DNA of 64,000 nucleotides from Ariolimax columbianus (taxonomy: Eukaryota > Mollusca > Gastropoda > Stylommatophora > Arionidae). The position numbers and the translations under genes are program-made. Below the pieces are notes generated by a model, which was not told the DNA's origin, ran no database searches, and worked only from the letters and a program-made list of their open reading frames with translations. Location of the stretch: positions 153,642,071-153,706,070 of the forward strand of contig JAVGWX010000002.1 in NCBI GenBank assembly GCA_036924085.1. Direction: 5' to 3'. Positions 12,640-20,986 of the stretch are shown here, piece after piece. Positions within the stretch are counted from its first letter, which is position 1. Every line of letters starts with the position of its first letter.

Positions 12640-13205
12640 ATAAAATTACACTGTTGGCTAACCTTCATGAAGAGTCAATCAATGAACTGTTGTTTGCTCG
12701 TGATCAAGTCATCTTCTACCAACACGGAGAAGACCTACAACACCGACTGAACTATCTCCATTTCCGTTGTAACTAACATGACGTGAAGATCAACACAGGC
12801 AAGACAGAGACAATGCTAATTTCGCGTGAACAATTGCAGAGACAATTCCACATCAGTGACATTGGTATCACGCAAGTACGAGAGTTCAGATACCTAGGTA
12901 GTATGTTCACTGATGGCGACAGAGTAGACAGAGAGATTGCACATATAATTCAGAAGACGAACAGCGCCCACTATTAAATTGCACCGGTTTTGAAACACCC
13001 TAGAATGTTCTTTCAAATAAAAGGAGGCTGATAAATGCAGTGCTTTTTCCTACATTGTGTTACCAATGTCAATATTGGTCCATACTGGCAACCCATAAGA
13101 GTAAGATCCAGAGCTGTGAGATGCAGCCGGAAGGACAATCTGTGACCAAACCCGCAACACAAAGCTGATGCAGATTGGGGAGACGAATCCAGTTAGTGCC
13201 GACAT
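12640..13205 (+). pseudogene. LINE reverse transcriptase, thumb region, upstream of satellite
   Basis: The plus strand reads INELLFARDQVIF (a decayed FADD box), then KINTGKTETMLISRE, ITQVREFRYLGSMFTDG, a DREIAHIIQKT block and LINAVLFPTLCYQCQYW. These follow the order of the RT palm end and thumb of non-LTR elements. The reading continues into LATHKSKIQSCEM and TRNTKLMQIGETNPVSADI, which is exactly where the 32-bp satellite units begin. Several stops and frameshifts are present, and the first FADD Asp is replaced. The remaining C-terminal coding sequence is found on the far side of the satellite (20754-20986), so this is one element opened by repeat expansion. Confidence 0.8.
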
Positions 13206-14294
13206 TGACACCCGACAAACCCAGCTAGTGCCGACATTGACGCCCAACAAACCCAGCTAGTGCCGAAATTGACGCCCAACAAACCCAGGTAGTACCGACA
13301 TTGACGCCCAACAAACCCAGTTAGTGCCGACATTGACGCCCAACAAACCCAGTTAGTGCCTACATTGACACCCAACAAACCCAGTTAGTACCGACATTGA
13401 CACCCAACAAACCCAGTTAGTGCCGACATTGACGCCCAACAAACCCAGTTAGTGCTGACATTGACGTCCAACAAACCCAGGTAGTGTCGACATTGATGCC
13501 CAACAAACCTAGTTAGTGCCGACATTGACACCCAACAAACCCAGTTAGTGCCTACATTGACTCCCAACAAACCCAGTTAGTGCCGACATTGACGCCCAAC
13601 AAACCCAGTTAGTGCTGACATTGACGTCCAACAAACCGAGGTAGTGTCGACATTGATGGCCAATAAACCTAGTTAGTGCCGACATTGACACCCAACAAAC
13701 CCAGTTAGTGCCTACATTGACTCCCAACAAACCCAATTAGTGCCGACATTGACGCCCAACAAACCCAGTTAGTGCCGACATTGACACCCAACAAACCCAG
13801 GTAGTGCCGACATTGACACCCAATAAACCCAGTTATTGCCGACATTGACACCCAACAAACCCAGTTAGTGCCGACATTGACGCCCAACAGACCCAAGTAG
13901 TACCGACATTGACACCCAACAAACCCAGGTAGTGCCGACATTGACGCCCAACAAACCCAGTTAGTGCCTACATTGACACCCAACAAACCCAGTTAGTACC
14001 GACATTGACACCCAACAAACCCAGTTAGTGCCGACATTGACGCCCAATAAACCCAGTTAGTGCTGACATTGACGTCCAACAAACCGAGGTAGTGTCGACA
14101 TTGAGGCCCAACAAACCTAGTTAGGGCCAACATTGACACCAAACAAACCCAGTTAGTGCCTACATTGACTCCCAACAAACCCAATTAGTGCCGACATTGA
14201 CGCCCAACAAACCCAGTTAGTGCCGACATTGACACCCAACAAACCCAGGTAGTGCCGACATTGATGACCAAGAAACCCAGGTAGTACCGACATT

Positions 14295-14640
14295 GACGCC
14301 AAACAAATCAAGTGTTTTGGTTATTTAGTCTGAATGCATTACGACCAACCTACATCTAGGGCATATCACATGCTGGTTTCCGTTCCACGAGCAAGAGGCA
14401 AATCACGATGTCGATGAATCAGATTGTCTCTGACACTCTCAGGAAGTTACACCTAACGACAGCACAACTCTCCGAGTGGGCGATAACAAGAAATCTACGC
14501 GTCCCGTTCTCTGCGACTCCGAATATCCTTACTGGCAACCCATAAGAGTAAGATCCAGAGCTGTGAGATGCAGCCGGAAGGACAATCTGTGACCAAACCC
14601 GCAACACAAAGCTGATGCAGATTGGGGAGACGAATCCAGT
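14295..14640 (+). pseudogene. LINE tail + head block between satellite macro-units 1 and 2
   Basis: The first part encodes IDAKQIKCFGYLV, then DQPTSRAYHML, RARGKSR and SDTLRKLHLTTAQL..ITRNLRVPFSATPN, the expected end of the RT started at 12640. At GAATATC/CTTACTGGC (about 14527) it joins directly to a repeat of the head segment (LATHKSKIQSCEM...GETNPVSADI). Equivalent blocks with a few substitutions lie at 15774-16120, 17669-18020 and 18443-18790. Confidence 0.8.
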
Positions 14641-15773
14641 TAGTGCCGACATTGACACCCGACAAACCCAGCTAGTGCCGACATTGACGCCCAACAAACC
14701 CAGGTAGTACCGACATTGACGCCCAACAAACCCAGTTAGTGCCGACATTGACGCCCAACAAACCCAGTCAGTGCCTACATTGACACCCAACAAACCCAGT
14801 TAGTACCGACATTGACACCCAACAAACCCAGTTAGTGCCGACATTGACGCCCAACAAACCCAGTTAGTGCTGACATTGACGTCCAACAAACCCAGGTAGT
14901 GTCGACATTGATGCCCAACAAACCTAGTTAGTGCCGACATTGACACCAAAGAAACCCAGTTAGTGCCTACATTGACTCCCAACAAACCCAATTAGTGCCG
15001 ACATTGACGCCCAACAAACCCAGTTAGTGCCGAAATTTACACCCAACAAACCCAGGTAGTGCCGACATTGACACCCAATAAACCCAGTTATTGCCGACAT
15101 TGTCACCCAACAAACCCAGTTAGTGCCGACATTGACGCCCAACAGACCCAGGTAGTACCGACATTGACACCCAACAAACGCAGTTAGTACCGACATTGAC
15201 ACCCAACAAACCCAGTTAGTGCCGACATTGACGCCGAACAAACCCAGTTAGTGCTGACATTGACGTCCAACAAACCGAGGTAGTGTCGACATTGATGCCC
15301 AACAAACCTAGTTAGTGCCGACATTGACACCCAACAAACCCAGTTAGTGCCTACATTGACTCCTAACAAACCCAATTAGTGCCGACATTGACGCCCAACA
15401 AACCCAGTTAGTGCCGACATTGACACCCAACAAACCCAGGTAGTGCCGACATTGACACCCAATAAACCCAGTTATTGCCGACATTGACACCCAACAAACC
15501 CAGGTAGTGCCGACATTGACGCCCAACAGACCCAGGTAGTACCGACATTGACACCCAACAAACCCAGGTAGTGCCGACATTGACGCCCAACAAACCCAGG
15601 TAGTGCCAACATTGACACCCAATAAAACCAGTTATTGCCGACATTGACACCCAACAAACCCAGTTAGTGCCGAGATTGACGCCCAACAGACCCAGGTAGT
15701 ACCGACATTGACACCCAACAAACCCAGGTAGTGCCGACATTGACGCCCAAGAAACCCAGGTAGTACCGTCATT

Positions 15774-18442: not shown

Positions 18443-18790
18443 GACGCCAAACAAATCAAGTGTTTTGGTTATTTAGTCTGAATGCATTACGACCAACCTA
18501 CATCTAGGGCATATCACATGCTGGTTTCCGTTCCACGAGCAAGAGGCAAATCACGATGTCGATGAATCAGATTGTCTCTGACACTCTCAGGAAGTTACAC
18601 CTAACGACAGCACAACTCTCCGAGTGGGCGATAACAAGAAATCTACGCGTCCCGTTCTCTGCGACTCCGAATATCCTTACTGGCAACCCATAAGAGTAAG
18701 ATCCAGAGCTGTGAGATGCAGCCGGAAGGACAATCTGTGACCAAACCCGCAACACAAAGCTGATGCAGATTGGGGAGACGAATCCAGTTA
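18443..18790 (+). pseudogene. LINE tail + head block between macro-units 4 and 5
   Basis: It is the same block again; its following head and first units match macro-unit 2 closely, including the CAAACCCAGTCAGTGCC variant at 14761 and 18908. That shows a segment of macro-unit 2 type was copied into macro-unit 5. Confidence 0.8.
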
Positions 18791-20753
18791 GTGCCGACAT
18801 TGACACCCGACAAACCCAGCTAGTGCCGACATTGACGCCCAACAAACCCAGGTAGTACCGACATTGACGCCCAACAAACCCAGTTAGTGGCGACATTGAC
18901 GCCCAACAAACCCAGTCAGTGCCTACATTGACACCCAACAAACCCAGTTAGTACCGACATTGACACCCAACAAACCCAGTTAGTGCCGACATTGACGCCC
19001 AACAAACCCAGTTAGTGCTGACATTGACGTCCAACAAACCCAGGTAGTGTCGACATTGATGCCCAACAAACCTAGTTAGTGCCGACATTGACACCAAAGA
19101 AACCCAGTTAGTGCCTACATTGACTCCCAACAAACCCAATTAGTGCCGACATTGACGCCCAACAAACCCAGTTAGTGCCGACATTGACACCCAACAAACC
19201 CAGGTAGTGCCGACATTGACACCCAATAAACCCAGTTATTGCCGACATTGTCACCCAACAAACCCAGTTAGTGCCGACATTGACGCCCAACAGACCCAGG
19301 TAGTACCGACATTGACGCCCAACAAACCCAGGTAGTACCGACATTGACGCCCAACAAACCCAGGTAGTACCGACATTGACGCCCAACAAACCCAGTTAGT
19401 GCCGACATTGACGCCCAACAAACCCAGTTAGTGCCTACATTGGCACCCAACAAACCCAGTTAGTACCGACATTGACACCCAACAAACCCAGTTAGTGCCG
19501 ACATTGACGCCCAACAAACCCAGTTAGTGCTGACATTGACGTCCAACAACCCCAGGTAGTGTCGACATTGATGCCCAACAAACCTAGTTAGTGCCGACAT
19601 TGACACACAACAAACCCAGTTAGTGCCTACATTGACTCCCAACAAACCCAATTAGTGCCGTCATTGACGCCCAACAAACCCAGTTAGTGCCGACATCGAC
19701 ACCCAACAAACCCAGGTAGTGCCGACATTGACACCCAATAAACCCAGTTATTGCCGACATTGACACCCAACAAACCCAGTTAGTGCCGACATTGACGCCC
19801 AACAGACCACGGTAGTACCGACATTGACACCCAACAAACCTAGTTAGTGCCGACATTGACACCCAACAAACCCAGTTAGTGCCTACATTGACTCCCAACA
19901 AACCCAGTTAGTACCGACATTGACACCCAACAAACCCAGTTAGTGCCGACATTGACGCCCAACAAACCCCGTTAGTGCTGACATTGACGTCCAACAAACC
20001 CAGTTATTGCCGACATTGACACCCAACAAACCCAGTTAGTGCCAACATTGACACCCAACAGACCCAGGTAGTACCGACATTGACACGCAACAAACCCAGG
20101 TAGTGCCGACATTGACGCCCAACAAACCCAGTTAGTGCCGACATTGACACCCAACAAACCCAGTTAGTACCGACATTGACACCCAACAAACCCAGTTAGT
20201 GCCGACATTGACGCCCAATAAACCCAGTTAGTGCTGACATTGACGTCCAACAAACCGAGGTAGTGTCGACATTGAGGCCCAACAAACCTAGTTAGTGCCA
20301 ACATTGACACCAAACAAACCCAGGTAGTGCCAACATTGACTCCCAACAAACCCAATTAGTGCCGACATTGACGCCCAACAAACCCAGTTAGTGCCGACAT
20401 TGACACCCAACAAACCCAGGTAGTGCCGACATTGACACCCAATAAACCCAGTTATTGCCGACATTGACACCCAACAAACCCAGTTAGTGCCGACATTGAC
20501 GCCCAACAGACCCAGGTAGTACCGACATTGACACCCAACAAACCCAGGTAGTGCCGACATTGACGCCCAACAAACCCAGGTAGTGCCAACATTGACACCC
20601 AATAAACCCAGTTATTGCTGACATTGACACCCAACAAACCCAGTTAGTGCCGACATTGACGCCCAACAGACCCAGGTAGTACCGACATTGACACCCAACA
20701 AACCCAGGTAGTGCCGACATTGACGCCCAAGAAACCCAGGTAGTACCGACATT

Positions 20754-20986
20754 GACGCCAAACAAATCAAGTGTTTTGGTTATTTAGTCTGAATGCATTA
20801 CGACCAACCTACATCTAGGGCATATCACATGCTGGTTTCCGTTCCACGAGCAAGAGGCAAATCACGATGTCGATGAATCAGAGTGTCTCTGACACTCTCA
20901 GGAAGTTACACCTAACGACAGCACAACTCTCCCAGTGGGCGATAACAAGAAATCTACGCGTCCCGTTCTCTGCGACTCCGAATATC
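20754..20986 (+). pseudogene. Terminal LINE tail closing the satellite
   Basis: This is the RT C-terminal tail (IDAKQIKCFGYLV to FSATPNI) following the last 32-bp unit. Here the tail is not followed by another head: at 20987 the sequence changes to an unrelated RT remnant. The block marks the right end of the satellite domain. Confidence 0.8.

Follow-up and report, generated by a model that had tools for sequence, protein, structure and literature searches.

Tandem repeats within or related to transposable elements are known from several systems. In the model of Haber and Louis, as related in a 2012 survey of human arrays, a minisatellite is born between direct repeats of 5-20 bp (via PMC3389668). 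Such flanking direct repeats accompany 300 of 7,276 human arrays derived from transposable elements, and known mechanisms could explain only 6% of these arrays (PMC3389668), with AluS and LTR12 as hotspots of minisatellite formation (Ahmed and Liang 2012, PMC3389668). Tandem repeats related to open reading frame 2 (ORF2) of long interspersed nuclear elements (LINEs) include chicken HinfI, with CR1, and Phodopus PROsat and Phoca Pvc 20, with L1 ORF2 (PMC9659126). Helitron central repeats are arrays within mobile elements (PMC12628747), and PcH-sat, a mainly pericentromeric satellite with a 179-bp monomer that makes up about 10% of the Patella caerulea genome, is related to Nin-SINE (PMC11121367). 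Here we consider a stretch of 64,000 nucleotides from Ariolimax columbianus (contig JAVGWX010000002.1, 153,642,071-153,706,070; "the window" denotes this whole stretch), in which 32 bp from the C-terminal coding region of a LINE are repeated in tandem.

The locus resembles each of these systems in part. As in the Haber and Louis model, a segment with short direct repeats at its ends (here 5 bp exact, or 9 of 11 letters in imperfect form) duplicates and grows; the difference is that here many copies of a single LINE are expanded at one and the same site, and the genome that holds them also supplies single-copy controls. The minisatellites of AluS and LTR12 likewise occupy preferred positions inside element copies, whereas the site here lies in LINE protein-coding sequence, its unit shifts the reading frame, its arrays reach 198 units and a third, LINE-flanked level of repetition is found at one locus. 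Chicken HinfI, PROsat and Pvc 20 share the kinship to LINE ORF2, but in the present case both the single-unit state and precise unit limits can be observed, with the arrays dispersed inside LINE copies. Helitron central repeats also form an array within an element, yet here no ordered array is common to different loci (0/276 pairs). PcH-sat is likewise a gastropod satellite related to a transposable element; the present unit, in contrast, is 32 bp long, LINE-derived and dispersed. The present case is set apart by the number of parallel expansions at one coding site, by the presence of unexpanded controls and by a third level with LINE flanks at one locus. Within the open-licence literature, judged by title and abstract, we found no report that deals with this LINE or describes a frame-shifting array recurring at a coding site of a LINE.

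We consider it probable that, in a broken LINE in the window, a 32-bp coding stretch became a minisatellite, now present in five tandem LINE-flanked copies, and that it originated by slippage between repeats 32 bp apart.

Coding origin of the 32-bp unit

The LINE reading begins at 12597 (tblastn, P0121-P0125) and passes into the array's first 32-bp unit, and the final unit is followed directly by the LINE tail, as the first-pass annotation of this DNA had proposed. Stops and frame breaks read in the window's LINE head mark this copy as dead. With one unit retained, the read-through peptide matches five proteins, every one of which contains PF00078 (E <= 3.4e-9; the best match, at 1.5e-41, covers 99% of the query); the RVT_1 profile gave the peptide no better than E = 0.001, short of its cut-off. 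An initial protein search at 1e-3 found none, a search of viral contigs, prokaryote contigs and plasmids gave no match, and an Rfam scan gave 0 matches. In the 2.29-Gb genome (401 contigs), where 40 of 1,959 first-look candidates were scored, the LINE is dispersed: all 40 scored places match, 35 of them outside the window. The element thus has both reverse-transcriptase homology and dispersed copies, and is a non-long-terminal-repeat retrotransposon; it may be RTE-like.

Two outside LINE proteins, P0121 and P0122, align without a gap across the 32-bp site, through ...NTKLMQIGETNPVSADIDAKQIKCFGYLV...; the unit is therefore LINE C-terminal coding DNA, as had been claimed, and not a chance resemblance. 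P0123 leaves the family just ahead of the site and is uninformative there. Since 32 is not divisible by 3, each extra unit shifts the frame. The expected unexpanded copies, reading straight through with one unit, make up 47 of the 55 LINE copies examined. Among 35 copies picked by tail match, 27 have one unit, 7 are too degraded and L010 has a 44-bp duplication at the site; all 20 copies picked by their GG-type left side have one unit. Genome-wide, single sites number 61 at <=1 mismatch and 360 at <=3. Apart from the 44-bp duplication in L010, a copy-level expansion near the site was seen in L028, as a 51-bp array beside it.

The single copy L084, which reads GGGGACAAACCCAGTTAGTGCCTACATTGACTCTCAACAAATCAAGTGGTTTGG, illustrates what may have seeded the arrays. 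Its unit ends, ACAAACCCAGT and ACAAATCAAGT, are equal at 9 of 11 letters and lie 32 bp apart. ACAAA is exact at both unit ends in 36 of 49 copies matched (L010 among the 49), and in nine copies examined the longest exact end repeat is 3-5 bp, reaching 5 bp in six. Unit-unit junctions read CAACAAA/CCCAGTT, as expected of an exchange inside ACAAA. At an offset of 32, 0.19% of 11-mer positions in the 55 copies reach at least 9 matches, the site itself being counted.

Elsewhere in the window, a reverse-transcriptase fragment, kin to the same LINE proteins, occupies 5031-5897 (-) and ends beside a GGAT-rich array (5031-5303). Directly after the first LINE, at 21019-21380, stands what appears to be the 3' fragment of a second LINE, to which 40381-40479 is about 70% alike over 99 bp.

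Five macro-units and their internal order

The region had been described as one 7.9-kb satellite. Instead, it is divided into five arrays by a recurring LINE head (106 bp) and LINE tail (223 bp), in the following arrangement.

12597..13188 (+): LINE head, 5'-truncated and broken, with the end of the reverse transcriptase and the C-terminal region (tblastn P0121-P0125; stops and frame breaks)
13083..14527 (+): macro-unit 1, 1,445 bp, head, array and tail
13189..14304 (+): 32-bp array 1, 35 units
14530..16006 (+): macro-unit 2, 1,477 bp
14636..15783 (+): 32-bp array 2, 36 units
16009..17901 (+): macro-unit 3, 1,893 bp
16115..17678 (+): 32-bp array 3, 49 units
17904..18675 (+): macro-unit 4, 772 bp, shortened
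18010..18452 (+): 32-bp array 4, 14 units
18678..20986 (+): macro-unit 5, 2,309 bp, with a mosaic array
18784..20763 (+): 32-bp array 5, 62 units, a mosaic that joins stretches like arrays 2 and 3 to the common end
20764..21014 (+): final LINE tail, with the 3' end common to genomic copies, whose matches stop near 21010-21017

The five arrays (35, 36, 49, 14 and 62) total 196 units of 32 bp; Tandem Repeats Finder (TRF) reports 13189-20766 as period 32 with 236 copies, a stretch that takes in the LINE spacers. Across the five macro-units 0 of 106 head sites and 3 of 223 tail sites are variable, and at two of the three tail sites the pattern is common to macro-units 2 and 5 and to 1 and 4. Each array has private unit types. 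All four internal macro-junctions read GAATATC/CT/TACTGG, and this junction occurs four times in the genome, every time in this window; a genome-wide spread of the macro-unit was accordingly rejected. Because copy L008 has TCCTTA where the first window head has TCCATA, the T at the junction is probably ancestral and the macro-join probably overlaps by TC. The simple internal expansion that had been proposed is thus supported as far as it goes, but the array was duplicated again together with its LINE flanks.

Within the window arrays the units follow a higher-order repeat of 14 units. Units at lag 14 differ by a mean of 2.65 positions, as against 3.36 when shuffled (lowest of 200 shuffles, 3.13), and lags 5, 19 and 38 likewise fall beneath every one of the 200 shuffles, whereas adjacent units are no closer than shuffled ones (3.42 and 3.40 differences). 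Since units 14 apart are alike and neighbours no more alike than shuffled units, growth would have proceeded in blocks, not in single units. Arrays 1, 2, 3 and 5 open with a near-identical series of unit types, and arrays 2-5 close with one, of which array 1 has only about the final two units. These common starts and ends suggest that the array was already long before the LINE-flanked block was duplicated. Units 1-12 of array 5 follow array 2 (1 nt in 384), and its units 18-33 follow array 3 from unit 4 to unit 19 (3 nt in 512). The end of array 5 differs from those of arrays 2, 3 and 4 by 5 nt in 416, 1 nt in 288 and 3 nt in 384, respectively. Unequal exchange between arrays would explain both the mosaic array 5 and the short macro-unit 4.

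Recurrence of the expansion and its origin

The expansion is not confined to this locus. The first unit-unit junction pattern has 2,359 genome matches at <=3 mismatches, and a junction pattern with the commoner unit has 2,692 at <=1 mismatch, two overlapping sets for which reversed controls gave 0. Outside the window, the 18 array loci retrieved first (L061-L078) have 2-198 units and all adjoin the LINE tail, 16 of them the head as well (BLAST); the next 13 right ends fetched (L099-L111) all have arrays, of 2 to at least 11 units, the counts being lower bounds where, in several cases, the array runs to the edge of the fetched piece. At <=1 mismatch there are 48 expanded right ends (50 rows minus 2 single copies) on 18 contigs, and the 16 inspected (L072, L078, L099-L111 and L113) are all expanded. 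Thus the 32-bp unit, when mapped elsewhere as the first-pass annotation had suggested, is found in dispersed arrays, none of the 18 fetched being a LINE-free satellite. The annotation's internal expansion of a single LINE holds in that LINE sequence expanded and no satellite was inserted, but not in its singularity, as many other copies have expanded too. With 48 ends on 18 contigs and a longest fetched array of 198 units, the arrays do not form the one large localised block of a major or centromeric satellite.

We considered whether these arrays were born separately or copied from one another. Some 210 of 229 unit types are restricted to one locus. In a comparison of arrays of at least 9 units (24 of 31 arrays; array 4 of the window falls out of phase in it owing to one 31-bp unit), an ordered run with at least two uncommon units was common to 0 of 276 locus pairs, while macro-units inside the window have up to 8 in common. 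Copying of arrays between insertions was therefore rejected as the main route. None of 58 flank matches of at least 150 bp lies on the same side and strand and at the same distance from two arrays, so these look like other dispersed repeats. A single and an expanded copy at C19:41.80/41.82 Mb, taken up as a recent duplicate pair, are 76.5% alike over 277 bp and so not recent. A tree of LINE tails (86 of 87 rows, one tail of <110 bp dropped; L010, L022, L031 and L034 unlabelled) with 31 expanded and 51 single copies requires 21 changes, against a shuffled mean of about 25, and rejects a single clade of expanded copies (p-AU 0.0102). A head+tail tree of 59 copies, 18 expanded and 40 single, requires 12, against 15.5. 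In both trees "single" means no 32-bp array, and so includes L015, L028, L030 and L035, whose sites are too degraded to count. With no ordered run of uncommon units common to any locus pair, and with a single clade rejected, it is most likely that expansion took place separately at many insertions.

We suggest that slippage, or microhomology repair, between the short repeats would have produced the first 32-bp duplication, and that block duplications would then have built longer arrays. This first step would mostly have followed insertion, independently at different loci, because a 32-bp frame shift would disable a copy that relies on the enzyme it encodes. In the window, one TC-TC join could have duplicated head, array and tail, after which unequal exchange between arrays would have multiplied the macro-unit and yielded the short macro-unit 4 and the mosaic macro-unit 5. 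The effect is likely to be a family of dispersed loci whose length varies. We lean towards the view that a site able to seed minisatellites sits in the coding DNA of this LINE family, each new insertion setting up a locus that can expand, separately from the others, into an array of variable length, and the odd locus becoming a LINE-flanked macrosatellite. The start of tandem repeats is hard to study, the initial unique state usually being lost; here the single unit, starts of two to four units, arrays of up to 198 units and a macro-array coexist at one LINE site in one genome, and first duplication, block growth and the macro-repeat step can be compared locus by locus. If this account is true, the element generates hypervariable DNA at dispersed places and amounts to a replicated natural experiment in the birth of tandem repeats; the LINE looks like a natural nursery for new repeat DNA.

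Several observations weigh against this account. The 32-bp array is absent from 35 of 35 best tail matches, and the share of copies that have expanded is not settled: the search pattern for expanded ends and that for single sites have different lengths (52 and 54), and units may stay intact for longer inside arrays, so that the ratio 48:61 probably overstates it, as 0/35 suggests. Starred branches force just three changes in the tail tree and two in the head+tail tree, a thin branch support. The expanded label is mildly clustered, with 24 (tail tree) and 13-17 (head+tail tree) of 500 shuffles equally low, and six expanded copies group together in the head+tail tree (96/77), so that some may have a first duplication in common. 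As to the seed, an exact 5-bp run is found at 4.6% of places per 28-bp stretch at offset 32, which makes the end repeat suggestive, not decisive. Other recurrent arrays of the same LINE (a 51-bp unit in L037, L062 and L079, a 26-bp unit in L066 and L087, and a 42-bp unit near the LINE 3' end in L019 and L032) do not follow an end-repeat rule, their sites having mostly 1-4 bp: 2-3 bp in 6 of 7 copies and 5 bp in one at the 51-bp site, 2-4 bp in 9 copies at the 26-bp site, and 1-3 bp in 8 of 9 at the 42-bp site, the ninth being L032, itself expanded there. Short end repeats match the 32-bp site and are no general rule for this LINE's arrays. Finally, the five macro-units are seen in one assembly, on which the macro-block rests.

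The clustering bears on a rival account, in which retrotransposition spread a LINE lineage that already held at least two units, with growth and divergence of its arrays following at each site. The group of six, the mild clustering and a GCCC-type unit present in several arrays (though the search pattern for L061-L068 favoured this unit) all point that way, but expanded copies are otherwise interspersed with single ones, with one clade rejected; the absence of a common run in all 276 pairs and the frame shift caused by a single extra unit also count against it, and we regard it as unlikely. A more distant prospect still is that the assembly has wrongly repeated one head-array-tail block, which would make the five macro-units an artefact: heads are identical, tails nearly so, and the layout comes from one assembly, but array lengths run from 14 to 62 units, each array has its private types and the three tail differences are patterned (2 with 5, and 1 with 4, at two sites). 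We give almost no credence to the insertion of an unrelated 32-bp satellite into the LINE. Such a satellite could account for a unit present at thousands of places; it is already contradicted by the gap-free coding sequence of the unit in single copies and in outside proteins and by the LINE tail beside 18 of 18 fetched arrays, and was rejected on these grounds as the source of the array. Separate expansion at many insertions remains the account that we prefer.

Other repeats in the window

Another coding region in the window also contains a short tandem array.

4586..4825 (+): 46-bp array of about five units, inside the C-terminal coding part of an RNase H LINE at 4399-4864 (TRF, tblastn)

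The sequence GCCTGCAG stands at the unit ends of this array. Genome matches to it at 3 mismatches number four, all inside the window. In another RNase H LINE, an 81-bp array at 43370-43951 (-) appears to split the C-terminal part, between a KLW-type and a TADFIL motif.

A second 32-bp unit, unrelated to the LINE unit, is found at 28740-29081 and 29938-30021, flanking an RNase H element (29153-29920) that looks as though it had landed within an array. This element has 170 relatives; of the 120 listed, those that carry a name come from gastropods (Nucella, Littorina, Batillaria, Gigantopelta and Bradybaena). A 360-bp segment stands in two tandem copies at 35178-35898 (98% matches, TRF). In all, tandem repeats make up 43% of the 64-kb window (TRF), many of them unrelated minisatellites.

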